Part shown: positions 975 to 21,276 of the stretch, piece after piece
Layout: each line of letters begins with the position of its first letter
Numbering within the stretch: position 1 is the first letter of the stretch
Assembly (NCBI RefSeq): GCF_024699275.1
Contig: NZ_JAILPX010000137.1
Span: 1 to 22,168 of the forward strand
Origin: Selenomonas sp.
Lineage (GTDB): Bacteria; Bacillota_C; Negativicutes; Selenomonadales; Selenomonadaceae
Length of the DNA stretch: 22,168 nt
Direction: 5' to 3'
Position numbers and translations under genes: made by a program
The notes under the pieces: model-generated
Seen by the model: the letters and a program-made list of their open reading frames with translations, nothing else
Databases searched by the model: none
What the model was told of the DNA's origin: nothing

Positions 975-1010
975 ACAGGGGAGTGATGTTTTCCATCACT
1001 CCTTTGTTTC
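975..1010 (+). terminator. Rho-independent terminator after the S1 gene
   Basis: GGAGTGATG (980-988) pairs perfectly with CATCACTCC (994-1002) around a five-base loop. The stem extends outward to 975/1007 with two G-T pairs and is followed by a T-rich run (TTTGTTTC). It lies 24 bases after the S1 stop codon and before the DUF512 gene. Confidence 0.8.
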
Positions 1011-1037
1011 GTTAGAATTAGAATGAAAGAGAAATGT

Positions 1038-2444
1038 ATGAGCAGAGAATACGCTGGAGTTATTTCCAGAGTGAATGAGGGCAGTCTGGCTGAGGAGCTG
1101 GACCTTGTGCCGGGAGATAAGATTATCGCCATCAATGAGCAGCCCCTGCGGGATATCATCGATGTGAGTTTTGCCATGGCCGATGAAGAAATCGACCTGA
1201 CGGTGGAGCATGCAGATGGGGAGCGGGAAATTATTTCCTTTGATAAGGACTTCGATGAGGAATTAGGTGTAGAATTCCAGTCGGCTGTCTTTGACGGCAT
1301 CCGCAACTGCGCCAATCATTGCTACTTCTGCTTTGTGGATATGATTGCCCCCAATATGCGGGGCAGTTTGTCCATCAAGGATGATGATTACCGGCTGTCC
1401 TTTCTCTATGGTAATTTTGTGACCATGACCAATATGGGGCCGGCGGATTTTAAGCGCATTGAGCAATTTCATCTGTCCCCCTTATATGTTTCGGTGCAGT
1501 GCATGAATCCGGAACTGCGGGCGCAGATGCTGCGCTGCAAGGGAGCGGCTAAGATTGCCCAGCAGTTGGACAATTTGGAAAAAGCCGGGGCCGACTACCA
1601 CACCCAGATTGTGCTCTGCGCTGGTCTCAACGATGGGGAGGAATTGGAGCGTTCCATTCGGGAAATCGCTGACCGGCGTCCCCATGCCCTCTCTATGGCC
1701 GTTGTGCCCGTAGGCCTGACAAAGTACCGTCAGGACCCTTTTCCTTTAAAGCAGTTTGATGCTGAGGGCGCGGCGCAGGTTATCGACATGGTGGAGAAAT
1801 GGCAGCGCAAATTCCAGCAGGAAGAGGGGAGAACCTTCCTTTATCTGGGGGATGAGTTCTACTTCCTGGCTGGCCGCGAGGTTCCGTCTACGGAATTTTA
1901 CGACGGCTTTCCTCAGCTGGATAATGGCATTGGCCTGACTCGCAGCTTTATCAATGATTGGGAGCTTACGGAGCAGGAAACAGAATCGTCTCAAGGATAT
2001 GCTGAACCGCTGTGCATTGATGTGGTTACAGGAACGGCTGTAGCCCCCATGATGGAGAAGCTGGCAAAGTCCTTGAATGTACCAAACCTGCAGGTGCGGA
2101 TTGTGCCGGTGGAAAATGACCATTTCGGTACCACGGTAAATGTATCGGGGCTGCTGACGGCGAAGGATATCCTCCGCACGCTGCAGGATATGCCGGAGGG
2201 GGATAAACGGCAGGGCTTGATTATCCCGGAACCGGCTTTGCGGGCCGGGGAGGATATCTTCCTGGATGATATGACCCTGCAGGAATTTGCTGCCCGTTTC
2301 CCTGGGGTTCGCGTCGAACCGGTGCAGGGCGGGGCAGATTTCTATCATGCCTTGACGGATTGGCTTCGTTATCATAAGGACCGGCAGGGAGAAACTGCTT
2401 ATACCTGGCAGAGCAATGCAGGTTATACGAAGCCTGCAGAATAA
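1038..2444 (+). CDS. DUF512 family PDZ / radical-SAM-like Fe-S protein
   Basis: This is a 468-residue protein. An N-terminal PDZ-like domain (about 5-70) precedes a C-x3-C-x2-C motif (Cys91, Cys95, Cys98), the arrangement that binds the [4Fe-4S] cluster in radical SAM enzymes. A conserved stretch D-D-D-Y-R-L-S-F-L-Y-G-N-F follows at about 115-127, and the C-terminal part corresponds to DUF512. Homologues are annotated as Fe-S oxidoreductases related to NifB/MoaA, and their reaction is not established. The start at 1038 is chosen over an in-frame ATG at 1023: the protein then begins at the PDZ domain as in relatives, and a purine-rich stretch (GAAAGAGAA) precedes it. The gene sits 21 bases before der, so the two are probably co-transcribed. 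Family membership is secure; function is unknown. Confidence 0.88.
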   Translation: MSREYAGVISRVNEGSLAEELDLVPGDKIIAINEQPLRDIIDVSFAMADEEIDLTVEHADGEREIISFDKDFDEELGVEFQSAVFDGIRNCANHCYFCFVDMIAPNMRGSLSIKDDDYRLSFLYGNFVTMTNMGPADFKRIEQFHLSPLYVSVQCMNPELRAQMLRCKGAAKIAQQLDNLEKAGADYHTQIVLCAGLNDGEELERSIREIADRRPHALSMAVVPVGLTKYRQDPFPLKQFDAEGAAQVIDMVEKWQRKFQQEEGRTFLYLGDEFYFLAGREVPSTEFYDGFPQLDNGIGLTRSFINDWELTEQETESSQGYAEPLCIDVVTGTAVAPMMEKLAKSLNVPNLQVRIVPVENDHFGTTVNVSGLLTAKDILRTLQDMPEGDKRQGLIIPEPALRAGEDIFLDDMTLQEFAARFPGVRVEPVQGGADFYHALTDWLRYHKDRQGETAYTWQSNAGYTKPAE

Positions 2445-2465
2445 ATGTAAGAAAGAAGGCAGACC

Positions 2466-3797
2466 ATGAGCAAACCTATCGTTGCCATCGTAGGTCGTCC
2501 GAATGTGGGCAAGTCTACGTTATTTAATCAGATCGGCAAGAAACGTGTTTCCATCGTTGACGATATGCCCGGTGTAACCCGGGACCGGATTTATCTTGAT
2601 GCGGAGTGGCTCAATCATGAGTTCACCATGATTGATACCGGCGGTATCGAATTCGATGAAAGCAATCATATCCTGAAATCCATGCGCAGTCAGGCGGAAA
2701 TCGCCATGGAAGAGGCGGATGTAATCCTCTTCCTGGTGGATGGCCGGACAGGGCTTACCACTGCAGATGAAGAGGTGGCTAAGATTCTGCGCAATACGAA
2801 AAAGCCCGTTGTTTTGGGCGTGAACAAGATTGACAGTCCGCAGCTGGAAATGAATACCTATGAGTTCTATAACTTGGGGCTGGGGGATCCCATTCCTTTG
2901 TCAGCCACCAACGTGATGAATCTGGGTGATTTACTGGATGCCATTGTGGCGGCTTTCCCCGAAGAAGTTCCTGAGGAGAAGGATGAGGATGAAATCAGCA
3001 TTGCGGTCATTGGCCGTCCTAATGTAGGAAAATCCTCGCTGGTTAATCAGCTCTTAGGGGAAGAGCGGGTTATTGTCAGCGATGTGGCCGGCACCACCCG
3101 GGATGCCATCGATACCCATTTCGTCAAGGACGATATGAAGTTCATGCTGATCGATACGGCAGGCATGCGCCGCCGGGGCAAAATCGATGAACCGGTGGAG
3201 CGTTACAGTGTTATGCGCTCTTTGCGGGCTATTGACCGGGCCGATGTGGTGCTCATGGTCATCAATGCCTTTGAAGGCATCACGGAACAGGACAAGAAAA
3301 TTGCTGGCTATGCCCACGAATCCGGCAAGGGTGTGGTCATCGTGGTAAATAAGTGGGATATCTTTCCGGATAAGGATGATAAGTCCACCCTGCGCTTTAC
3401 GGAGGATTTGCGGGAAGAAATCGGCTTTTTGCAGTATGCCCCGGTACTCTATGCTTCGGCACTGACGGGCCAGCGGGTAGGACGGGTGACGGAACTGGTG
3501 AAATATGTGGCAGAACAGCAGTCCATGCGCATTAAGACTAGCGTCTTAAACGAGCTTATCCGGGATGCGGTATCCATCAATCCGCCGCCCATGCATCGTG
3601 GCCGGCGTTTGAAGATTCTCTTCATGACCCAGGCGGATATCAAGCCGCCGAAATTCATTATCTTCGTCAATGACCCGGAACTCATGCATTTTTCCTATTT
3701 ACGGTTTATCGAAAATCGCCTGCGGGAAATGTATGGTTTTGAGGGGACGCCGCTCCGCCTGATTGTCCGGGCAAGGGATGAGGAGGATGATTATTGA
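2466..3797 (+). CDS. der: Ribosome-assembly GTPase Der (EngA)
   Basis: This 443-residue protein has the tandem GTPase domains that define Der. The first has the P-loop G-R-P-N-V-G-K-S (10-17), D-T-G-G (57-60) and N-K-I-D (120-123). The second has G-R-P-N-V-G-K-S (183-190), D-T-A-G (230-233) and N-K-W-D (295-298). A KH-like RNA-binding domain fills about 353-440. The length is normal for the family and all nucleotide-binding motifs are intact. Der acts in maturation of the 50S ribosomal subunit and is essential in most bacteria studied. Its stop codon overlaps the plsY start by one base (TGATG), which suggests translational coupling. Confidence 0.97.
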   Translation: MSKPIVAIVGRPNVGKSTLFNQIGKKRVSIVDDMPGVTRDRIYLDAEWLNHEFTMIDTGGIEFDESNHILKSMRSQAEIAMEEADVILFLVDGRTGLTTADEEVAKILRNTKKPVVLGVNKIDSPQLEMNTYEFYNLGLGDPIPLSATNVMNLGDLLDAIVAAFPEEVPEEKDEDEISIAVIGRPNVGKSSLVNQLLGEERVIVSDVAGTTRDAIDTHFVKDDMKFMLIDTAGMRRRGKIDEPVERYSVMRSLRAIDRADVVLMVINAFEGITEQDKKIAGYAHESGKGVVIVVNKWDIFPDKDDKSTLRFTEDLREEIGFLQYAPVLYASALTGQRVGRVTELVKYVAEQQSMRIKTSVLNELIRDAVSINPPPMHRGRRLKILFMTQADIKPPKFIIFVNDPELMHFSYLRFIENRLREMYGFEGTPLRLIVRARDEEDDY

Positions 3798-11422: not shown

Positions 11423-12151
11423 TTAGCGGTGGGCCAGGTAGCTCATATAGGATACCTTGGCATCACGTATCCGCCGCTTACTGATGGGAATTTTGGATCC
11501 ATCCTTGAGTACGAAGTCATCCCGGTCCATCACGCTGACATAGTCCATATTGATGATGATGCGATGGTGGCATTCCAGGAAGCGCTTGTCCTGCAGAAGA
11601 ATTTCGGAGCAGTTGCTATAGGCCAGCAGGGTATCCACATCGGATTCTGCCAGATGTAGGCGCAGGCTGTGCTTATCATTGATGTCCACATAGACGATGT
11701 TGCGGAAGGGAATATCCACATTCTCACCGGCAACAGGTACGCTGATATCCTGCTCCATGGCCAAAAGTTCCGGCAGGATGTGTTCAAAGGTATGGGCAAA
11801 GTCTTCGGCATGGCTGACCAGCGGCTTGAGAAAGTAGCCCGAGGCAAAGACCCGATAGCCATCCAGCAGGTGCTCTTTGCTGGTGGTCAGGAAGATGATG
11901 GGGACCCGTTCATCTTTTTGCCGGATGGCTTCCGCTGTTTCGATGCCCGTCATGGACCCCATGTAGATATCCAGGATGATCAGGGAGAATTTTCCCGGGG
12001 TAAAGGTGGCAAGCAAATCCTCGCCAGAGGTATAGCTTTCCATGCGCAAGCCCCCGATGATTTCCGGATGATTGTAACGAAGATAACCCAATAGTTGCTT
12101 TTCCGTGGTGAGCAAATCAAATTTTTGGTCGTCTGCAATGGCGATATTCAT
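11423..12151 (-). CDS. LytTR-family response regulator
   Basis: This is a 242-residue regulator. The receiver domain (1-125) has the acidic pair Asp7-Asp8, phosphoacceptor Asp61 (L-I-I-L-D-I-Y-M), Thr89/Thr90 and Lys109 before a proline. The C-terminal domain (about 137-240) is a LytTR DNA-binding domain with the typical ending (L-E-C-H-H-R-I-I-I-N, later K-I-P-I-S-K-R-R). Such regulators (AgrA, LytR) bind pairs of short direct repeats. The start at 12151 is chosen over 12208 because AGAGGTG precedes it and the receiver begins at once (M-N-I-A-I-A-D-D). It is divergent from a GHKL kinase operon, its likely partner. A 13-base direct repeat in the shared intergenic region is a candidate binding site. 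Its targets beyond this locus cannot be told. Confidence 0.93.
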   Translation of the reverse strand: MNIAIADDQKFDLLTTEKQLLGYLRYNHPEIIGGLRMESYTSGEDLLATFTPGKFSLIILDIYMGSMTGIETAEAIRQKDERVPIIFLTTSKEHLLDGYRVFASGYFLKPLVSHAEDFAHTFEHILPELLAMEQDISVPVAGENVDIPFRNIVYVDINDKHSLRLHLAESDVDTLLAYSNCSEILLQDKRFLECHHRIIINMDYVSVMDRDDFVLKDGSKIPISKRRIRDAKVSYMSYLAHR

Positions 12152-12338: not shown

Positions 12339-12368
12339 TCGACAAGGCCTGCATAATGGCAGTATAAT
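12339..12368 (+). promoter_or_regulatory. Sigma-70-type promoter of the kinase operon
   Basis: TCGACA (-35, 12339-12344) and a perfect TATAAT (-10, 12363-12368) are separated by 18 bases. It lies 37 bases before the TTG start of the kinase gene. The repeated operator candidate is about 70-100 bases upstream. Confidence 0.7.
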
Positions 12369-12404: not shown

Positions 12405-13733
12405 TTGGGGGAAATGGTGCTCTTTTGTTTGGCGGTAGTGTTGGTCCAGCTGGCAGGGGCTTATTTGCGTTTCCTGTCCTTTCGGGATCAGTTGCAGCCC
12501 CTTGAGGTACGCGCTCTCTGGCGGAAATTTTTTCTTTGGAGTATTTTCTGCTGGGTGCTTTACGGCGGTATCTTTACGCAGACAGGATTGACAGCCGCAG
12601 CTTATAAGGCGGTATTGTTTTGCGGCTGGCTGCCTTATTTCCTCATCTTTGTCCGGGCGCTGCCGGGGCGGTGGCTGGCACATATCTTTGTCTTTGGCAT
12701 GTGTTTTCTCTGGAGCTTTACCCTGCATAATTTCAGCAATATCGCTCTGGCGGTATTCATGCGTTTTGCGTCGGAAGCAGTCATTATTGGGATTCATCCC
12801 TGGCTTTATCTGGTATGGTTTCTGTTTACCCTGCCCCTGGCCAAAACGTATTTTATCCGGTTGTTGCCAGAACCGGAACTTTTTGCCCGTCGGCCTTTGG
12901 GCATCTATATTGCCGTTTTGCCCTGGTTGATGCTTTCCGGTCATGTCTGGCTCATTGCGGATGGTGCGCTATGGCATACCTGGGGAGAGCGGATTTCCCG
13001 CCTTTGCCTGGTGATGGGATTTTTGTTGGCCTATCGTTATATCCTGGTGGCGGCCCGGCAATTTTACCAGCGGGAACTAGCGGCCAACAACGAGGAAATC
13101 ATGGGGCAGGAGATTACCTATTTGGAAGATTATCAGCGGTTGATGGCAGAGCGCAAGGAACGGGCAGAAGTGATGCAGGCTAATCTTCTGGCGTCTTATG
13201 ACAAGCTGCACGATTTACTGTTGGCAGGAAAGCTGGCAGAGGCCCGCCATTATATTGGAGAGCAAGAGCAGCTTTTAGGTGCAGTGGCCATTTGGGCTTA
13301 TTCTTCATTTCCTTTGGTTAACGCAGCCATATCCCTGTATCTGCGGCGGGCGGAGAATCAGGGGATTGAGGTCAGCCCAAAGGTGAATCTGCCCCAGAAA
13401 ATGGCCACCGATGAAAACGATTTAGCGGTGTTGTTATCCAATCTTCTGGAAAATGCGATTCAGGCTTGTGAAGGGATGTCGGAGCCGCAGCTGTCTCTGG
13501 TTTTGCAGCATGATGGCCGGCAAATTGTACTGGAAATCGTCAATCCCAGCGCCAGAACCGTGAAAATCGGTGCCGATGGGCTGCCGGTGTCGGATAAAAG
13601 TCGGCCGGGGCATGGCATTGGCACCCTGTCCTTGAAGAGCTTTCTGGCTAAATATGATGGTTATGTGGATTTTTCCCAGGAAGCAGGTTTGGTGCGGCTC
13701 TTTATCTATTGGGAGGATGGAAAATCATGCTGA
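12405..13733 (+). CDS. GHKL sensor kinase with degenerate phosphoacceptor helix
   Basis: This 442-residue membrane protein has about six or seven hydrophobic segments (about 4-24, 42-84, 92-115, 122-152, 166-190, 198-216). A coiled-coil linker and an ATPase domain of the GHKL type follow: N-box L-L-S-N-L-L-E-N-A-I-Q-A-C (343-355) and glycine box G-H-G-I-G-T-L-S (402-409). The family normally carries R-H-D-x-R-H-H upstream of this. Here the same helix, recognisable from Y265 and the following L-x3-L-L-x2-G-K spacing, reads Q258-A-N-L-L-A-S264, so the histidine that should be phosphorylated is alanine. Start is TTG 12405, nine bases after GGAGG (12392-12396); ATG 12414 is possible. The last seven bases overlap the next gene, which encodes the missing phosphoacceptor. 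The kinase fold is intact, so it is unlikely to be a dead gene. Confidence 0.88.
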   Translation: MGEMVLFCLAVVLVQLAGAYLRFLSFRDQLQPLEVRALWRKFFLWSIFCWVLYGGIFTQTGLTAAAYKAVLFCGWLPYFLIFVRALPGRWLAHIFVFGMCFLWSFTLHNFSNIALAVFMRFASEAVIIGIHPWLYLVWFLFTLPLAKTYFIRLLPEPELFARRPLGIYIAVLPWLMLSGHVWLIADGALWHTWGERISRLCLVMGFLLAYRYILVAARQFYQRELAANNEEIMGQEITYLEDYQRLMAERKERAEVMQANLLASYDKLHDLLLAGKLAEARHYIGEQEQLLGAVAIWAYSSFPLVNAAISLYLRRAENQGIEVSPKVNLPQKMATDENDLAVLLSNLLENAIQACEGMSEPQLSLVLQHDGRQIVLEIVNPSARTVKIGADGLPVSDKSRPGHGIGTLSLKSFLAKYDGYVDFSQEAGLVRLFIYWEDGKSC

Positions 13734-14038
13734 TACTGGCCGTCTTGATTACCTTGGCGCAACTATTGATTGTCTACCTGCTGATCTTTCAGGCGACGCG
13801 TCAGCGGCTGCGGAATGAGCGGGTACAGGAGATGCTGCGGCTGCGGCTGGCTGTGCTGAAGCAGGAAACAAGTCTGGTGCAGCAGGATATTGAAAGTACC
13901 CGCATTCTGCGCCACGATATGCGTCATCACTACCGCATGCTCTATGCACTGTTGGAGGAAGGCAATGTGAAAGCCGCCCTGGCCCATATCGAAAATCAGC
14001 AGGCGGCCATTCAATGTTTGCGGCATAAGCAGGATTAA
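13727..14038 (+). CDS. Small membrane protein carrying a stand-alone histidine phosphoacceptor helix
   Basis: This is a 103-residue protein. One membrane helix (1-22) and a charged coiled coil (about 24-58) lead into L-R-H-D-M-R-H-H (61-68, presumed phosphoacceptor His63). It then continues as the second helix of a kinase dimerisation domain (L-L-E-E-G-N-V-K-A-A-L-A-H-I-E-N) and stops. No ATP-binding domain is present here or in any frame downstream, where a different gene follows. The segment 59-95 aligns without gaps to residues 254-290 of the upstream kinase, whose equivalent histidine is lost. The ATG at 13727 lies ten bases after GGGAGG and overlaps the kinase stop, implying coupled translation. 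It may be phosphorylated in trans and pass phosphate to the LytTR regulator. It could also be a truncated second kinase, but the overlap and neat end argue for a real gene. Confidence 0.8.
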   Translation: MLILAVLITLAQLLIVYLLIFQATRQRLRNERVQEMLRLRLAVLKQETSLVQQDIESTRILRHDMRHHYRMLYALLEEGNVKAALAHIENQQAAIQCLRHKQD

Positions 14039-14527: not shown

Positions 14528-15007
14528 ATGTTAATGGTACAATGCTATAGTGTTTTTTGGTTGTTTACCACCATTGCTTCGTTGAAGATGCTGATGGACC
14601 GCTTGAATACCGACCAGGCAGAAGAGGCATTGCAGGAAGAGAAGGATGAACTGGATGCCATGGGCAAAATGTTTTCCGGCGATTATATCGGTCGGATGTT
14701 TATCCTGATTGGCACGCTGCTGCTGATCTTCGACTGTGCAGGGCTGTTTCTGGCTTATCAGTATGTGGAGTTCCGGCCCTGGCAGCTGGTGGTGTTCTAT
14801 CTGTCCATAGCTGCGCTGGGTGGTGAATTGGCCCATAATATCTACCGCTATCGGGGATTAAGGGCAGAAGGGGCCGATGTATCGGCCATTCTGACCGAAA
14901 GCATTGAGGACTTGCATTCCGGCTGGAATCTGGTGACTTTAGCAGCCATGGGGGGCAAGCTGATTTTAGGGGTTCTTTTGGTACTATGGACGGTGTTCTC
15001 GTCTTAA
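14528..15007 (+). CDS. Small membrane protein of unknown function
   Basis: This is a 159-residue protein that I do not recognise. It has hydrophobic segments at about 5-20, 55-78, 85-105 and 135-157. A charged, acidic cytoplasmic-type stretch (about 24-48, rich in E and D) lies between the first and second. No catalytic motif is visible. The ATG is two bases after the stop of the UPF0158 gene, which supplies a weak ribosome-binding site, so translation is probably coupled. It ends just before the promoter of ireB. Base composition is like the neighbours, with nothing suggesting recent transfer. Confidence 0.7.
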   Translation: MLMVQCYSVFWLFTTIASLKMLMDRLNTDQAEEALQEEKDELDAMGKMFSGDYIGRMFILIGTLLLIFDCAGLFLAYQYVEFRPWQLVVFYLSIAALGGELAHNIYRYRGLRAEGADVSAILTESIEDLHSGWNLVTLAAMGGKLILGVLLVLWTVFSS

Positions 15008-15073: not shown

Positions 15074-15328
15074 ATGGTTAGTGAAGAAACGATGATGTTT
15101 AAGATGGGCGGCGAGGAAAACAAAGCCGAGACGATTATTCGTCAGGCCAGTGCCGCTATGGCGGAAAAAGGCTATAACCCCGTCAATCAGCTGGTGGGCT
15201 ATCTGCTGTCTGGTGACCCGGCTTATGTAACCAGCTACAAGGAGGCCCGGAGCCTTATCCGCCAGCTGGAACGAGATGAATTACTGGAGGAACTGGTGCG
15301 TTCCTATTTGGAGAAATTAAAGAAATGA
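15074..15328 (+). CDS. ireB: IreB family regulatory phosphoprotein (DUF965)
   Basis: This 84-residue protein matches the IreB/UPF0297 family along its whole length: E-T-M-M-F near the N-terminus, [19 protein letters not shown] in the middle and [11 protein letters not shown] at the end. In Enterococcus faecalis IreB is phosphorylated by the PASTA-domain Ser/Thr kinase IreK on two N-terminal threonines and controls cephalosporin resistance. Here only one threonine (Thr6) is present in that region. The gene overlaps ruvX by four bases (ATGA) and heads the cluster that in Bacillus subtilis runs yrzL-yrrK-yrzB-yrrL-yrrM. The matching kinase is not in the window. Confidence 0.93.
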
Positions 15329-15741
15329 AACGATATATGGCCTTGGACATCGGTGACCGTACGGTGGGTATCGCTGTAAGTGACTTATTGGGGCTCACAG
15401 CTCAGGGAGTGGAAACCATCCGCCGGGGAGAATTGGAGGCGGATTTACATCGTCTCGATGAGTTGATTGCCCAGTATGAGGTGGATGAACTGGTATCCGG
15501 GTATCCGAAGAATATGAACGGCACGGAAGGGGAACGCTGTCAGATCGTCAAGGACTTTATGGCTGAGGTCAGCAAGCATCATCCGGACATGCCCGTGCAT
15601 TTTTGGGATGAGCGTCTATCTACGGTGGCAGCGACCCGCTCCCTGCTGGAGGCCGATGTTTCCCGCAAAAAACGGCGCAAGGTTATCGATAAGATGGCGG
15701 CGGTGTTTATCCTGCAAGGTTGGCTTGACAGTCTTCATTGA
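15325..15741 (+). CDS. ruvX: Holliday junction resolvase-like nuclease RuvX (YqgF)
   Basis: This 138-residue RNase H-fold nuclease of the YqgF family is implicated in pre-16S rRNA 5' end processing (E. coli) and Holliday-junction resolution (YqgF/RuvX homologues). Seen here are the N-terminal [15 protein letters not shown] with catalytic Asp8, the [11 protein letters not shown] loop and the C-terminal [10 protein letters not shown] basic [12 protein letters not shown] helix follows. Length is normal. It overlaps ireB by four bases, so the two are coupled. Confidence 0.95.
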
Positions 15742-15786
15742 GATAGGATAAAATAAATTGTTCAATAAATCATTGAGGTGAAAAAT

Positions 15787-16116
15787 ATGGCAAATAAAGA
15801 AGATATGCAGGACGAAGAAGGCTTCATCGTCATTATGACGGATGAAGAGGGAAATGAATATCGCTATGCAGAGGAAATGATTATCCCTGTGGAGGATCAG
15901 AAATACGCATTGCTGGTGGGCATCCATGATGAAGAAGATGGTCATGACCACTGCGGTTGCGGTTGTGGCTGCGAAGATGAGGAAGAGGATGTCATCATCG
16001 CGAAGATCGTCAAGGGTGCTGATGGTGAGGACGAGTACGTGGAGCCCACCGATGAGGAATTCGAGGCGGTACAGAAAGCCTACGATGCTCTGGTTGAGGA
16101 ATCGGAACAGGAGTAA
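15787..16116 (+). CDS. DUF1292 family protein with a Cys-Gly run
   Basis: This is a 109-residue, very acidic protein of the DUF1292 (YrzB-like) family, whose function is unknown. The family pattern is visible: I-V-I-M-T-D-E-E-G-N-E-Y (14-25), Q-K-Y-A-L-L (38-43), then I-I-A-K-I-V (70-75) and a C-terminal E-E-F-E-A-V. Between the halves lies H-D-H-C-G-C-G-C-G-C (53-62), four cysteines alternating with glycine after two histidines, flanked by acidic residues. That could bind a metal; this is inferred. The start at 15787 is preferred to GTG 15778 because GAGGTG sits six bases before it. A terminator follows directly. Confidence 0.87.
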   Translation: MANKEDMQDEEGFIVIMTDEEGNEYRYAEEMIIPVEDQKYALLVGIHDEEDGHDHCGCGCGCEDEEEDVIIAKIVKGADGEDEYVEPTDEEFEAVQKAYDALVEESEQE

Positions 16117-16125
16117 ATAGGTAGA

Positions 16126-16161
16126 ACTGCCATTCACTTGGGGATGGCAGTCTTTTATTTT
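16126..16161 (+). terminator. Terminator after the DUF1292 gene
   Basis: A ten-pair stem (16126-16135 with 16142-16151, core ACTGCCAT/ATGGCAGT, one G-T pair) closes a six-base loop and is followed by CTTTTATTTT. It may be leaky, because mltG begins 26 bases later without a clear promoter of its own. Confidence 0.78.
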
Positions 16162-16187
16162 GCCGAAAAAAGACAGGAGATGTTGGT

Positions 16188-17321
16188 GTGGGGGATCTGC
16201 TTTCCAAAATCGGGGAGTTTAAGGATAAGCTGGGAAAATGGCTTAACGGTGAAGAGGTGGACCTGGGAAATATCCATGATGGGATGAAGAAAGGATCGGA
16301 ATTTTTTCATTCCCTGACCTGGAAGCATTGGGTTGCAATTGGCGGTTTCTGTGTGCTGGTGGGGGTATTGGCCGCAGTCCTGACCTTTAAAACGGCTGAC
16401 GAAGCGGCACCAAAGGATTTGGACCCGAATCAGACCATATTCCTTTCGGTGAAAAAGGGCATGAGTGCTGGTGATATTACCGAGGAACTGCTTAAGCATG
16501 GCATTATCAACAATAAGAAGGCCTTTTGGCTGCAGGTGAAAAAAGGTGATGTGGCGGATAAATTCAAATCTGGCACCTATGCCTTTAAGCCAAATACCCC
16601 GCCGGAGGAAATCATTGCCAAACTGGTGGCAGGAGATACCACCGAGGTGAAGTTTACCATTCCTGAAGGTTTCGGTGTTAAGGAAATAGCCAAGCGGCTC
16701 AGTGATGAAGGCTTAGTGGATGAGCAGGAGTTCCTGGATAAGGCCAAGAATTTTGCACCTTATAGCTACATCAAGCGGGATAAGGATATCCGTTATGCCT
16801 GCGAAGGCTTCCTGTTTCCTGATACCTATGTGCTCCATGATGATCCTTCCGTTGATGGCATTTTGAAGATGATGGCGGAGGATTTGGATACCCGTTTGAC
16901 GTCGAAGCTGCGGCAGCGGGCAGAGGAAATGCATCTTTCCATCCATGAGCTCATTACCCTGGCATCTTTGGTGGAAAAAGAAGCCATGTATGAGGAGGAC
17001 CGGCCCATCATTGCCCAGGTATTCTTCAAGCGGCTCAAGCTGGGGATGCCTATCCAGTCCGATACTACCATCCAGTATCTGCTGGATGCGCCCAAGGAAG
17101 ATGTGAGCATCAAGGATACGAAGATCGATTCCCCTTATAACACCTATCAGATCAAGGGGCTGCCTCCAGGGCCCATTGCCAGTCCGGGCATGGCAGCCAT
17201 AAAAGCGGTGCTTTATCCTGCAGATACCGATTATCTCTATTTTGTGGCGGATCGGCAGGGGCATAATCATTATTCGAAAACCTATGCTGAACATCAGCAG
17301 ATTGTAGAACAGGTGCGATAA
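16188..17321 (+). CDS. mltG: Endolytic murein transglycosylase MltG (YceG-like)
   Basis: This 377-residue enzyme cuts nascent peptidoglycan strands and is thought to set glycan chain ends. An N-terminal cytoplasmic part of about 46 residues is followed by a membrane helix (about 48-67). A LysM-like region (about 80-150) comes next, then the YceG catalytic domain: E-G-F-L-F-P-D-T-Y (206-214), the catalytic glutamate in L-A-S-L-V-E-K-E-A (Glu263) and M-P-I-Q-S-D-T-T-I-Q-Y (287-297). The start codon is GTG, seven bases after AGGAGA. The stop codon is followed after two bases by the start of the methyltransferase gene, so the two form one unit. Confidence 0.94.
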   Translation: MGDLLSKIGEFKDKLGKWLNGEEVDLGNIHDGMKKGSEFFHSLTWKHWVAIGGFCVLVGVLAAVLTFKTADEAAPKDLDPNQTIFLSVKKGMSAGDITEELLKHGIINNKKAFWLQVKKGDVADKFKSGTYAFKPNTPPEEIIAKLVAGDTTEVKFTIPEGFGVKEIAKRLSDEGLVDEQEFLDKAKNFAPYSYIKRDKDIRYACEGFLFPDTYVLHDDPSVDGILKMMAEDLDTRLTSKLRQRAEEMHLSIHELITLASLVEKEAMYEEDRPIIAQVFFKRLKLGMPIQSDTTIQYLLDAPKEDVSIKDTKIDSPYNTYQIKGLPPGPIASPGMAAIKAVLYPADTDYLYFVADRQGHNHYSKTYAEHQQIVEQVR

Positions 17322-17323
17322 AT

Positions 17324-17923
17324 TTGAATGAACTTTTACGGGAGATGGAGGGCTACGCGGCTCTCCATCACGTTCCCATTATCAATGAGCGGGGACGGCA
17401 GGCTTTCTTGCAGGTGGTGCGGGAAGCGAAGCCTCACCGCGTCTTGGAAATCGGCACGGCTATTGGTTATTCCAGCCTGCTGATGGCACAGAATGGTGCC
17501 GACGATATTGAAATCACAACGCTGGAGCTCAGTGACGAACGGATAAGGACGGCACAGGGCTATATTGACCGGTCAGCTTATGCTGGCCGGATTCGCATTA
17601 TGGGCGGAGATGCAGCGGAAAACCTGCTGACCCTGCAGCATACCGAGCAAAAATATGACTTTGTGTTCATTGATGCAGCCAAGGGGCAATATGTGGATTA
17701 TTTCCATAAAATCCAGCCTTTACTGACGGAAGATGCTGTTATTTTAGCGGATAATGTTCTGTTCCGGGGCTATGTCAAAGGCGATGTGGAAACGCCTCGA
17801 CGCTTCAAGACCATTGTCAAGCGCTTGCGGGAGTATATTGAGCTGGTCAGCCAGCCTCCCTTTGTAACGGAAATACTGGAAAACGGCGATGGTCTCGCCG
17901 TAACGAGGAGAGTTAATCGATGA
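17324..17923 (+). CDS. trmR: SAM-dependent O-methyltransferase, TrmR-like
   Basis: This 199-residue class I methyltransferase is of the catechol-O-methyltransferase-like, metal-dependent type. The SAM-binding loop is V-L-E-I-G-T-A-I-G-Y-S-S (40-51), and metal-site residues are Asp117, Asp143 and Asn144. In Bacillus subtilis the gene at this position, yrrM, encodes TrmR, which methylates 5-hydroxyuridine at position 34 of tRNA, acting after the U32 proteins. Here a U32 gene follows with a four-base overlap, so the same role is likely. The start is TTG at 17324; an ATG at 17328 is in another frame. Whether this enzyme truly modifies tRNA is inferred from synteny. Confidence 0.85.
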   Translation: MNELLREMEGYAALHHVPIINERGRQAFLQVVREAKPHRVLEIGTAIGYSSLLMAQNGADDIEITTLELSDERIRTAQGYIDRSAYAGRIRIMGGDAAENLLTLQHTEQKYDFVFIDAAKGQYVDYFHKIQPLLTEDAVILADNVLFRGYVKGDVETPRRFKTIVKRLREYIELVSQPPFVTEILENGDGLAVTRRVNR

Positions 17924-19152
17924 TTAAGAAACCGGAATTACTTGCTCCGGCAGGCAATTTGGAAAAGATGAAGATGGCGGTGCTCTACGGTGCCGATGCG
18001 GTGTACCTTGGTGGCAAAGCCTTTGGTCTGCGGGCCTTCGGCGGAAATTTCACCTATGAGGAATTGAAAGAAGCCGTGGATTTTGCCCATGCCAGGGGGA
18101 AGAAGGTCTATGTGACCGTCAATATTTTTCCGCATAACAGCGATATGGACAAGCTGCCGGATTATCTGCGCTATCTGCAGGAAATCCAGGTGGATGCTCT
18201 GCTGGTGGCTGATTTGGGCGTATTCATGATGTGCCGCAAGCTGATTCCCCATATGGAACTGCATATCAGCACCCAGGCCAACAATACCAACTGGGCTACG
18301 GTGAATGCCTGGAAGGAATTGGGGGCAAAGCGGGTGGTATTGGCCCGGGAAATGAGCCTTAAAGAGATTCGGGAAATTCGGAAAAAATGTGATGTGGATT
18401 TGGAGATGTTCATGCATGGTGCCATGTGCATTTCCTATTCAGGCCGCTGTCTGTTGTCCAATTACTTTACAGGCCGGGATTCCAACCGGGGCAGCTGTGC
18501 CCAGTCCTGCCGCTGGAAGTATGCGCTGGTGGAGGAAACCCGTCCGGGGAAATACTTCCCCATTGCGGAGGATGAGCGGGGCACCTATATCATGAATTCC
18601 AAGGATATGTGCCTGATGCCCCATCTGCGGGATGTGCTGGAAAGCGGCGTGGACAGCCTCAAGATTGAGGGCCGTATGAAAAGTGTCCATTATGCAGCCA
18701 GTGTCACCAAGGCTTACCGGCTGGCCATTGACAACTATTTTGCCGACCCGGAGAATTTTACGGTTAAGCAGGAATGGATGGATGAACTGGAAAAGGTTTC
18801 CCATCGGGCTTATACCACGGGTTTCTATTATCATCAGCCCGACGCCGAGGATCAGATCTATGGCAAGACATCCTATGACCAGACATCGGATTTCGTGGGA
18901 CTGGTGCGTTCCTATGATTCGGCTACAGGGTATGCCGTGGTGGAACAGCGCAACAATATGAAGGTGGGGCAGGAAATCGAAGTATTCCAGCCCACGGGGC
19001 CTCTCTACCGGCAGAAGATTACATCCATGTTGGATGGGGAGACCAATGAGGAAATCTTCGTGGCGCCCCATCCCCAGCAGATTATCCGCATGAAGATGGA
19101 ACAGCCGGTGGAACCTTATACGATTTTACGGCGGGACATTCCTGCTAAATAA
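17920..19152 (+). CDS. trhP: U32 family protein, TrhP-like tRNA hydroxylation protein
   Basis: This 410-residue member of the U32 family (formerly annotated peptidase) has the signature E-M-F-M-H-G-A-M-C-I-S-Y-S-G-R-C (162-177). Cys170, Cys177, Cys193 and Cys231 fall close to the spacing of the four cluster ligands described for UbiU. Members of this family form 5-hydroxyuridine in tRNA (TrhP in B. subtilis and E. coli), drawing oxygen from prephenate. B. subtilis has two U32 genes in this cluster; only one is present here. The start ATG overlaps the methyltransferase stop by four bases. A strong hairpin follows the gene. Confidence 0.88.
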   Translation: MIKKPELLAPAGNLEKMKMAVLYGADAVYLGGKAFGLRAFGGNFTYEELKEAVDFAHARGKKVYVTVNIFPHNSDMDKLPDYLRYLQEIQVDALLVADLGVFMMCRKLIPHMELHISTQANNTNWATVNAWKELGAKRVVLAREMSLKEIREIRKKCDVDLEMFMHGAMCISYSGRCLLSNYFTGRDSNRGSCAQSCRWKYALVEETRPGKYFPIAEDERGTYIMNSKDMCLMPHLRDVLESGVDSLKIEGRMKSVHYAASVTKAYRLAIDNYFADPENFTVKQEWMDELEKVSHRAYTTGFYYHQPDAEDQIYGKTSYDQTSDFVGLVRSYDSATGYAVVEQRNNMKVGQEIEVFQPTGPLYRQKITSMLDGETNEEIFVAPHPQQIIRMKMEQPVEPYTILRRDIPAK

Positions 19153-19164
19153 TATTTTGAAAAG

Positions 19165-19203
19165 CGCGTGGTGGGATGAGTTGCCAACTCATCCCGCCAT
19201 GCG
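19165..19203. terminator. Long hairpin after the U32 gene
   Basis: Bases 19165-19182 pair with 19186-19203 over 18 positions (two G-T pairs) around a three-base loop. The stem is very stable, but no T-run follows on the + strand, so it is an unusual terminator or an RNA-stabilising 3' end. On the - strand the following sequence, CTTTTC, is only weakly T-rich. Confidence 0.5.
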
Positions 19204-19248
19204 TATGGCAATAAAATATAATAGTATTAAACCGGAGTGGTTATATAG

Positions 19249-19277
19249 TTTACATCTGTTACTAAAAATAGTACAAT
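19249..19277 (+). promoter_or_regulatory. Sigma-70-type promoter for the acylphosphatase gene
   Basis: TTTACA (-35, 19249-19254) and TACAAT (-10, 19272-19277) are separated by 17 bases, in an A+T-rich stretch. It lies 46 bases before the acyP start and after the long hairpin, so it starts a new unit. Confidence 0.7.
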
Positions 19278-19322
19278 ATAACCTGTGATTTGTAATATTA
19301 TTGCTTAGGGGAGGCAGTTTTC

Positions 19323-19604
19323 ATGGCAGATTTAGTTCGTTATTTTGGTACCGCAACGGGAACGGTGCAGGGCGTGGGCTTTCGGATGTTTGTACAGCAG
19401 AATGCTTTAGAGCTGGGGATTACCGGTTGGGTGAAAAATATGACGGATGGCACGGTGACTATGGAGCTGCAGGGAACCCAGGCGGCCATTGACCGGCTGA
19501 CTGATATTATCCGTCAGGGAAATTACTTTATTAAGGTGCAGAGCTTTGGGCTGGAGGCCCGGGATGTGATTGCCATGGAACGGCGTTTTGACATTCATTA
19601 CTAA
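19323..19604 (+). CDS. acyP: Acylphosphatase
   Basis: This 93-residue enzyme hydrolyses acyl phosphates. It shows G-T-V-Q-G-V-G-F-R (13-21) with catalytic Arg21, and G-W-V-K-N-M-T-D-G (35-43) with catalytic Asn39. Length is normal for the family. GGGGAGG precedes the ATG. The gene is 11 bases before aroQ. Acyl phosphate is also the substrate of PlsY in this window, but no functional link can be claimed from sequence. Confidence 0.94.
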
Positions 19605-19615
19605 GGAGGCTGTTC

Positions 19616-20050
19616 ATGCATAAAGTATTGGTATTAAATGGTCCCAATCTCAATCTTCTGGGCACCCGGGAGCCGGAAATCTATGGCAGCACCACGCTGC
19701 AGGACATTGAGAAAATGCTCCAAAAGCGGGGAGCTGAGGCCGGTATTACCGTGGACTGCTTTCAGTCCAATCACGAGGGTGTATTGGTGGATAAGATTCA
19801 GGCAGCCCGGGGCGTTTACGATTACATTATCTTCAATGCGGCGGCGTTTACCCACTATAGCATTGCTCTGCGGGATGCCATAGCGGCTATTGAGGTGCCG
19901 GTGATTGAGGTGCATATCTCCAATATCCACAAGCGGGAAGAGTTCCGGCATAATTCGGTGCTGGCGCCGGTGGCAATGGGACAGATATGTGGATTAGGTG
20001 TGGAGAGCTATTTAGCAGCTCTCGAAGCGATTATTTACAAATTAAGTTAA
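19616..20050 (+). CDS. aroQ: 3-dehydroquinate dehydratase, type II
   Basis: This 144-residue shikimate-pathway enzyme dehydrates 3-dehydroquinate. Type II is shown by [14 protein letters not shown] near the N-terminus (7-20) with the loop Arg18 and Tyr23. The segment F-Q-S-N-H-E-G (49-55), N-A-A-A-F-T-H (74-80) and the catalytic His100 in E-V-H-I-S-N are also present. GGAGG lies seven bases before the ATG. No other shikimate genes are nearby. The region after its stop is non-coding and holds a structured element. Confidence 0.96.
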
Positions 20051-20057
20051 TACGTTG

Positions 20058-20158
20058 TTATGTACTTTTCTTTGGTGCAAAGAAAAGTACATAAAGACAA
20101 TAGCGGACTGAAATCCCATCCGGGGATTTACGTCCACAAGTGCCCTTCTTTGGGCGCT
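20058..20158 (+). repeat. Structured intergenic element, three hairpins
   Basis: Three hairpins stand in a row. The first is a perfect 17-pair stem (20058-20074 with 20078-20094, loop GTG). The second is 20105-20117 with 20123-20135, containing one two-by-two internal loop. The third is a seven-pair stem (20139-20145 with 20152-20158) over TTCTTT. The element lies between aroQ and the M24 peptidase gene. It resembles multi-copy intergenic repeats of this type, but the copy number cannot be judged from one window. The first hairpin may also end aroQ transcripts. Confidence 0.6.
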
Positions 20159-20196
20159 GGGAAGTACAGTATCTTTATAGGAGTTGACCCATTTTT

Positions 20197-21276
20197 ATGA
20201 AGGAAAGTCGTTTACAGGCTCTGCGGGTTTTGATGGCAGAGAAGAATTTGGATGCGGTAATTATCACGAAGTATGTGAACTTGCATTACTTTAGCGGGTT
20301 CCGTGGAGATGATACCACGCTGGTGATTGGTCATAAGGATGCCATGCTGATTACGGACAGCCGTTATACGGAACAGGCTGGAAATCAGGCACCGCTGTTT
20401 GAAATCGTGGAACAGAAGAATGGTCTGCTGGCTAAGACGGCGGAGTGTGTGCAGAAGATTGGGGCCAAGAATGTGGGCTTTGAGGGCAATGCCATGATTT
20501 ATGATGACTTTGCCCAGCTGGGCAAGCTCTTGACAGGCTGCACCTTCAATACGCCGTTGAAGCTGGACACCCTGCGTCAGATCAAAGACGAAGAGGAAAT
20601 CGCTAATATCCGCAAGGCCTGCGGCATCGTGGATATTGCCTTTGCAGATATGCTGACCTATGTACGGCCGGGGATGACGGAAGTACAGGCAGCCGCCCAT
20701 CTGGAAAACTGCATGCGGGAAAATGGTTCAGAAGGACCTTCCTTTACCACCATCATGGCTTCCGGCCTGCGGGGCAGTCTGCCCCATGGCGTGGCTACGG
20801 ATAAGGTGATCAATGAAGGGGAATTCTTGACCATGGACTTTGGCGCCTTCTTTAATGGCTATGCTTCGGATATTACCAGAACCATCTGCATCGGCAAGGC
20901 GGATGAGAAGCAGCGCAGAATCTATAAGGCGGTACTGGAATCCCAGCTGCTTGGCCTTAACAAGATCAAGCCCGGTGCTTCCGGCAAGTCTGTCCATGAA
21001 GCGGTACGGGCGAACCTGGCTAAATACGATTTGGCCCAGTATTTCGGTCATGGCTTAGGGCATAGTCTGGGGTTGGAAATCCATGAAGAGCCCCGCCTGT
21101 CCCCTAAGAGCAACTGTGAAGCCCTGCAGCCGGGAATGCTGGTAACCGATGAACCGGGCGTATATCTGCCGGGCTGGGGCGGCCTGCGCATCGAAGATAC
21201 GGTGCTGGTAACGGAAACAGGCTCTGAACCCTTGACCAAGGCGCCCAAAGAACTCATTGAGTTGGGGGCGCGTTAA
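20197..21276 (+). CDS. Xaa-Pro aminopeptidase-like M24 metallopeptidase
   Basis: This 359-residue protein is of the prolidase/aminopeptidase P type. A creatinase-like N-terminal domain (about 1-128) is followed by a pita-bread catalytic domain in which all five metal ligands are present: Asp214 (M-D-F-G), Asp225, His289 (G-H-G-L-G-H-S), Glu319 (D-E-P-G) and Glu333 (R-I-E-D). These enzymes remove an N-terminal residue before proline or cleave Xaa-Pro dipeptides; which of the two applies here is not clear from sequence. There is no signal peptide, so it is cytoplasmic. The AGGAG site is 13 bases from the ATG, rather far. It may be in one unit with the following SIMPL-domain gene, 22 bases downstream. 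Confidence 0.92.
   Translation: MKESRLQALRVLMAEKNLDAVIITKYVNLHYFSGFRGDDTTLVIGHKDAMLITDSRYTEQAGNQAPLFEIVEQKNGLLAKTAECVQKIGAKNVGFEGNAMIYDDFAQLGKLLTGCTFNTPLKLDTLRQIKDEEEIANIRKACGIVDIAFADMLTYVRPGMTEVQAAAHLENCMRENGSEGPSFTTIMASGLRGSLPHGVATDKVINEGEFLTMDFGAFFNGYASDITRTICIGKADEKQRRIYKAVLESQLLGLNKIKPGASGKSVHEAVRANLAKYDLAQYFGHGLGHSLGLEIHEEPRLSPKSNCEALQPGMLVTDEPGVYLPGWGGLRIEDTVLVTETGSEPLTKAPKELIELGAR

Follow-up and report, generated by a model that had tools for sequence, protein, structure and literature searches.

In AgrC of Staphylococcus aureus, which signals with a LytTR partner, the phosphoacceptor histidine and the ATPase domain reside in one chain. Spo0B of Bacillus subtilis is a DHp-like helical hairpin that bears a histidine and has no kinase activity of its own; it relays phosphate between two receivers and carries a degenerate ATPase-like domain. 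Complementation between histidine-less and ATP-less kinase mutants is a classic laboratory experiment.

Natural systems in which the histidine and the catalytic domain are contributed by different proteins have also been described. The FasB/FasC-FasA system of group A Streptococcus consists of two co-transcribed sensor-kinase-like genes and one regulator; FasC residues 1-286 (transmembrane region and DHp) and FasB residues 216-448 (DHp and HATPase) each suffice, and FasC H246 is required (PMC12675982). FasB and FasC interacted in a two-hybrid assay in which self-association was undetected, a result that supports a heterodimer (PMC12675982). In CheA3/CheA4 of Rhodobacter sphaeroides, the acceptor and catalytic domains lie on separate chains, neither of which autophosphorylates alone, and the same article counts 1556 of 42417 HisKA proteins in SMART as lacking a HATPase domain and presents modelling that argues for the ability of split, bifunctional kinases to respond like a switch (PMC3591291).

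The locus described here lies in a 22,168-nucleotide stretch of Selenomonas sp. DNA (contig NZ_JAILPX010000137.1), the whole of which is referred to as the window. As in the Fas system, the catalytic half comes from one gene product and the histidine from the other. In contrast to the window pair, each of the Fas proteins is full length, and their DHp-only form was a truncation made in the laboratory (PMC12675982). The window partner naturally lacks both an ATPase domain and a multi-helix sensor, and the two systems are likened by logic, not by homology; by analogy, FasB/FasC may be taken as experimental support for the split logic proposed here. CheA3/CheA4 differs from the window pair in that it serves chemotaxis, is cytoplasmic, has a P1 domain in place of a DHp and lacks a membrane sensor of its own (PMC3591291). 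Hik36/Hik43 of Synechocystis likewise has its histidine and catalytic parts in separate genes, but these are of the CheA type with HPt and are located far apart (PMC7656254). The original prediction for this locus knew of no described system with precisely such a layout, but there are precedents, as FasB/FasC and CheA3/CheA4 share the same logic. Within the open-access PMC literature, represented mostly by titles and the beginnings of abstracts, no description of this layout in Selenomonadaceae was found. Split kinases as such were already known; the combination not found in that literature is a membrane-tethered, DHp-only partner beside a histidine-less kinase, together with graded intermediates and both polarities of the split.

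The histidine-less kinase and its small neighbour

The upstream gene of the pair (12414..13733, forward strand) encodes a membrane sensor kinase without a phosphoacceptor histidine, of 439 amino acids from the ATG at 12414 or 442 from the TTG at 12405. Its H-box reads VMQANLLASYDK, and an alanine codon (13179..13181, forward strand) replaces the lost histidine at column 22 of the alignment, within a pseudo-DHp helix. The GHKL ATP-binding (CA) domain (13416..13697, forward strand) matches PF14501 (HATPase_c_5) over residues 338-431 of 442 with an E value of 2e-11, and both the N-box (NLLENA) and the G-box (GHGIG) are intact. The prediction that this kinase had lost its own histidine was borne out.

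An AlphaFold2 model of the kinase (mean pLDDT 85.9) comprises sensor helices, a long helix at 190-270, a short helix at 274-288 and an ATPase fold. The nearest solved structure is the S. aureus AgrC kinase module 6e52 (fold E 4e-9), which was also the sole match at E <= 0.01 in a profile search against structures (E 0.0044). The fold search additionally recovered the AgrC ATPase domain 4bxi with a TM-score on the target of 0.76, and a single-sequence structure search returned PhoQ domains only (E about 1e-3). Like AgrC and other AgrC-like (HPK10) kinases, the protein has a GHKL domain of the HATPase_c_5 family, an AgrC-like module and a LytTR partner; unlike AgrC, it does not carry the histidine in the same chain, and the neighbouring gene supplies it. 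The pair has the traits of a split histidine kinase, one chain having an ATPase domain without an acceptor histidine and the second the reverse.

The neighbouring gene (13727..14038, forward strand) begins with an ATG and encodes a stand-alone DHp protein of 103 amino acids. One N-terminal hydrophobic membrane helix passes into a continuous coiled-coil and H-box helix that extends to ILRHDMRHHYRMLYALLEEG and is followed by a turn and a second DHp helix. The H-box is intact (RHDMRHHY), and its histidine, His63 (codon CAC, 13913..13915, forward strand), is the putative phosphoacceptor. AlphaFold2 modelling with a 16-row alignment placed helices at 2-77 and 81-102 (mean pLDDT 90.6), so that the protein contains the whole DHp hairpin, beyond the histidine helix, and stops where a normal kinase continues into its ATPase domain. 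These findings agree with the original description of the reading frame as a membrane helix and an intact phosphoacceptor helix without an ATPase. Two further features of that description were confirmed: the first seven bases of the small gene (13727-13733) are shared with the end of the kinase gene, and a GGGAGG ribosome-binding site (13711..13716, forward strand) lies within the kinase reading frame, ten bases from the ATG. The predicted role of the small protein as a membrane-tethered phosphoacceptor for the histidine-less kinase is supported by the conservation of the pair described below.

Pfam searches with the 103-residue protein gave no ATPase match, no Hpt domain (PF01627) at E <= 1 and no match above a curated cut-off, the best being Phage_CII (E 0.003, below the family cut-off). 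NCBIfam yielded nothing useful, a fold search with the model of the protein gave no significant match, and tblastn against a plasmid collection returned one match (24%).

Short proteins of this form are present in other genomes. A profile search of a 5.8-billion-protein database recovered 38 proteins of 79-113 amino acids, the window's own included, and [RK]HD[LM]RHHY was found in 36 of them in a search that did not select on the motif. The exceptions were P0088, in which the sequence is RHDLGHHY with the histidine kept, and P0119 (79 amino acids), which diverges ahead of the motif. No precomputed Pfam domain is recorded for any of the 37 profile relatives, which are labelled hypothetical or uncharacterized protein wherever a source gives them a name. 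The short form was detected at E <= 1e-42 in 13 of 380 class-level genomes (next match, 7e-24), all 13 belonging to the GTDB family set of Selenomonas ruminantium HD4. R62, H63, D64, R66, H67, H68 and Y69 are invariant in the 16-row short-form alignment. The seven-base overlap of the ATG with the kinase stop recurs in 11 of 14 short-form loci, and GGGAGG precedes the ATG in 13 of the 14. Of seven pairs, five had a computable dS and gave a dN/dS ratio of 0.06-0.21 for the short gene, with values that are rough for two of the five (dS above 2); in the other two pairs dS was saturated. A truncation or pseudogene cut confined to this one gene, the case that had been set in advance against the prediction, was rejected, as there are 38 short proteins and 13 other genomes carry the short form as a conserved gene in its own right.

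A LytTR response regulator gene (11423..12151, reverse strand; PF00072 and PF04397) is divergent from the kinase and encodes the candidate phosphate receiver. Its open reading frame can extend to 12208; many relatives are 729 nucleotides long, matching the start at 12151. A LytTR regulator adjoins all 14 short-form loci (window included), being divergent in 13 and convergent in 1, and the aspartate is present in every regulator that was aligned from a split system (33 of 33). Upstream of the kinase, a promoter-like TCGACA-18-TATAAT site (12339..12368, forward strand) agrees with the consensus at 11 of 12 positions; as the region holds 4 promoter-like sites where 3.7 would be expected, it is a consensus match only. 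The next gene downstream of the pair encodes a UPF0158 protein (PF03682; 14115-14525), followed by a 159-amino-acid protein without a Pfam match (14528-15007). The scanned reading frames of 15074-21276 are ordinary housekeeping genes (IreB, RuvX, DUF1292, YceG-like, O-methyltransferase, U32 peptidase and M24 peptidase).

Co-occurrence and complementary motif loss

Contigs were scanned with a 40-row kinase alignment, which gave 63 loci; 51 of these (L001-L051), from records titled Selenomonas, Anaerovibrio or other Negativicutes, were examined and 12 distant ones were set aside. The denominator set came from the GTDB family that includes S. ruminantium HD4, in which 189 genomes were searched and at least 99 had a kinase match; 109 loci from 91 family genomes together with the window gave 110 classified kinases. 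Excluded from classification were the weak-match genomes G055, G129, G140, G163, G175, G176, G177 and G189, the fragment G057:C178, and the pairs G002:C8 and G003:C13, the like of which are present at Anaerovibrio loci L049 and L013; L173 had no ATPase match and was left unclassified. The sets L001-L051 and L064-L173 partly overlap and their counts were not summed. Since some single kinases are near-identical (for example, L107/L108), the counts represent loci and not independent events.

The canonical H-box (HDxxH) was absent in 51 of the 110 classified kinases (window included), and the histidine itself was absent in 46. A same-strand gene with HDxxH adjoined 45 of the 51 H-box-less kinases and 42 of the 46 without a histidine at the column. 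The script rule counted 44 partnered kinases; L079 was added from the alignment, its partner having been missed by the overlap rule because the L079 kinase frame reads on. Among the 59 kinases with HDxxH, a neighbour of this type was found beside only one (L160) and was lacking in 58. The association gave a Fisher p of 4e-22 in a test that ignores shared ancestry, a value that is descriptive only because the loci are related. Conservation of the pair with its histidine kept had been chosen beforehand as a test of the original prediction, and the prediction passed it.

The 45 partners comprised 14 short proteins of 100-112 amino acids (window included), 24 sensor and DHp proteins without an ATPase domain (15 upstream and 9 downstream of the kinase) and 7 full-length proteins (4 downstream and 3 upstream). 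Partners thus form a series, from full-length proteins with altered ATP boxes, through sensor and DHp only, to the form of about 103 amino acids.

Six H-box-less kinases had no neighbour with HDxxH. Contig ends truncate three of them (L111, L121 and L134), and the other three (L104, L109 and L114) belong to tandem pairs without a canonical H-box in either gene; L104 and L109 lack the histidine in both genes, and the second gene of L114 has His-Glu. A histidine still stands at the column, in another context, in 5 of the 51 H-box-less kinases (L064, L096, L114, L117 and L134). L064 (RHDLKE), L096 (NHNFL) and L117 (SHEIR) keep it despite having a partner, indicating that loss is incomplete there.

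Two loci were set apart by other features. In the tandem pair L160 (40-2894), each gene has a canonical H-box and the first has an altered G-box; this pair is possibly an early stage of the split. At L127 (from 1932), a stop breaks the frame of a single histidine-bearing kinase just where the ATPase domain begins; this may be a genuine split or a sequencing error, and the locus was counted among the singles although its ATPase part lies past the stop.

With strict patterns for the ATP boxes (NxxEN and G[HQR]GxG), 44 of the 51 H-box-less kinases matched on both, as did 49 of the 57 single kinases, but none of the eight full-length histidine-bearing neighbours did so (L160 included), although two of the eight kept NxxEN. 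Contig ends truncate two of the seven H-box-less kinases that failed the pattern (L146 and L156), and the ATP boxes of the L117 kinase are degraded too.

Motif-position statistics, which omit L160-L172, revealed a corresponding division within the H-box. In 48 H-box-less kinases, the exposed positions -1, 0, +1, +3, +4, +5, +7 and +8 vary widely (2.4-3.3 bits), and the core positions persist (Leu+2 in 36 of 48, Tyr+6 in 46, Leu/Ile+9 in 46 and Leu/Ile+13 in 47). Partners carry R-H-D-x-R-H at -1, 0, +1, +3 and +4 in 42 of 42 cases; because HDxxH served to define the groups, the contrast is in part by construction at 0, +1 and +4, and positions -1, +3, +5, +7 and +8 are independent of that definition. 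Variable exposed positions with a maintained core are the pattern expected if the kinase helix is kept for packing and that of the partner for chemistry.

Phylogeny of the gene pairs

A sensor-domain tree was built from 99 rows and 234 columns, with L160-L172 dropped, every fourth distant single kinase kept and the positions of L079 and L111 set by hand. Second-position genes formed one clade (98/96), whether kinase or partner. In approximately unbiased (AU) tests that were picked after the first tree was known, a single clade of all H-box-less kinases was rejected (p 5e-4), as was a single clade of all partners (p 4e-104). Over the tree as a whole, the H-box state switched about 5-7 times, at least five of these changes lying on well-supported branches. 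In an ATPase-domain tree of only 139 columns, one H-box-less clade was again rejected (p 3e-7), and second-position copies as one clade were not (p 0.27); these values lend no support to the idea that the two polarities arose by a swap of C-terminal halves between paralogues.

The kinases of the short-form loci, which are first-position genes, group in a single clade (13 rows, 100/99; L159 is absent from the tree). Lacking a multi-helix sensor, their short partners stand outside the sensor tree. A DHp tree, with L160-L172 omitted, accommodated the short form with either first-gene or second-gene partners (p 0.29 and 0.22, respectively), the DHp segment being too short to indicate the ancestral gene of the 103-residue form.

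The simplest reading of these trees suggests one old tandem duplication, which would have been followed by complementary degeneration, with reciprocal loss of the histidine and the ATPase from the first and second copies, in both polarities and in different lineages. The split apparently evolved more than once. Gene order, and not the tree, points to a last step toward the short form, in which the partner would subsequently have lost the greater part of its sensor domain.

Loci L169, L170 and L171 (about 1000-3350 on the kinase strand) contain a sensor and DHp gene of 300-307 amino acids (RHDSRHQL) that ends after the DHp and lies immediately upstream of a kinase with Glu in place of His. They belong to the same GTDB family, are far removed from the other loci and apparently represent an independent split, although their branches are long.

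On balance, we favor a family-wide reading in which these would be obligately heteromeric kinases: an ancestral tandem duplication would repeatedly have given way, in either polarity, to catalysing-only and accepting-only chains, ending in the 103-residue membrane DHp protein, with L169-L171 as an independent repeat.

Proposed mechanism and alternatives

Between them, the two window genes very probably encode a single, divided histidine kinase of the AgrC type: the upstream protein would phosphorylate His63 in a mixed bundle, and the small protein would feed the LytTR regulator. This model draws on the observed architecture, complementary loss, co-occurrence, conservation and phylogeny, from which complex formation, the direction of phosphate flow and the identity of the regulator are predicted. 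The upstream protein would sense through its membrane domain and bind ATP, and its pseudo-DHp helix pair would be able to pack. The 103-residue protein, membrane-tethered and probably made by translational coupling, would be the missing DHp half and would form a mixed helix bundle with the kinase. The ATPase domain of the kinase would then phosphorylate His63, and phosphate would pass from His63 to the aspartate of the adjacent LytTR regulator.

A small, membrane-bound partner might also be an accessory regulator that tunes the kinase or the regulator, or serves as a phosphate sink, with another kinase feeding the regulator; accessory or heterodimeric sensor-kinase partners of this kind exist, and RocA, LiaF and RetS are named as examples (PMC12675982). 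An accessory protein need not keep a whole H-box, however, yet nearly all of the short proteins do so, and it would create no need for kinases to lose the H-box in both gene positions. We therefore regard this role as unlikely.

Still less probable is a phosphotransferase of the Spo0B type, in which the DHp protein would relay phosphate between two receivers instead of receiving it from ATP. The original prediction had drawn a loose likeness to Spo0B, and the 103-residue protein shares with it a histidine-bearing helical hairpin. The likeness proved weak: Spo0B (1ixm) was the top Foldseek match of the protein at an insignificant E of 7, and SPOB_a reached E <= 0.01 in 6 of the 16 short homologues, with 4e-4 as the lowest value, but did not match the window protein at E <= 1. 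Unlike Spo0B, the protein ends after the DHp hairpin and has no degenerate ATPase-like C-terminal domain. Further, the LytTR regulator was the only receiver among 16 window reading frames scanned with Pfam, and a relay leaves unexplained an adjacent kinase that has ATP boxes and no acceptor.

That the locus is the relic of a decayed tandem kinase pair heading to loss is very improbable, for although L104, L109, L111 and L114 look decayed, the low dN/dS ratios, the invariant His63 motif, the start geometry common to most of the 14 loci and the ATP boxes of most H-box-less kinases all speak against decay. There is equally little to expect from a kinase that phosphorylates another residue of its own pseudo-DHp, with the small protein as a second, parallel acceptor: the few H-box-less kinases with a histidine at the column would suit it, as would FasB, which keeps other histidines and for which cis phosphorylation was not excluded (PMC12675982), but the exposed H-box positions are variable across the 48 kinases and the window kinase has alanine at the column.

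An annotation pipeline would likely call this locus an orphan dead kinase. If the split-kinase model is true, the pair would be a natural counterpart of the complementation between histidine-less and ATP-less mutants, in which phosphorylation is in trans by construction and each bundle has a single acceptor face. The system opens direct tests of cis versus trans phosphorylation, of one acceptor face per bundle and of signal passage through a pseudo-DHp. Its living relatives preserve many stages in the splitting of a histidine kinase into a catalytic chain and an acceptor chain, apparently reached in both directions after a single duplication.
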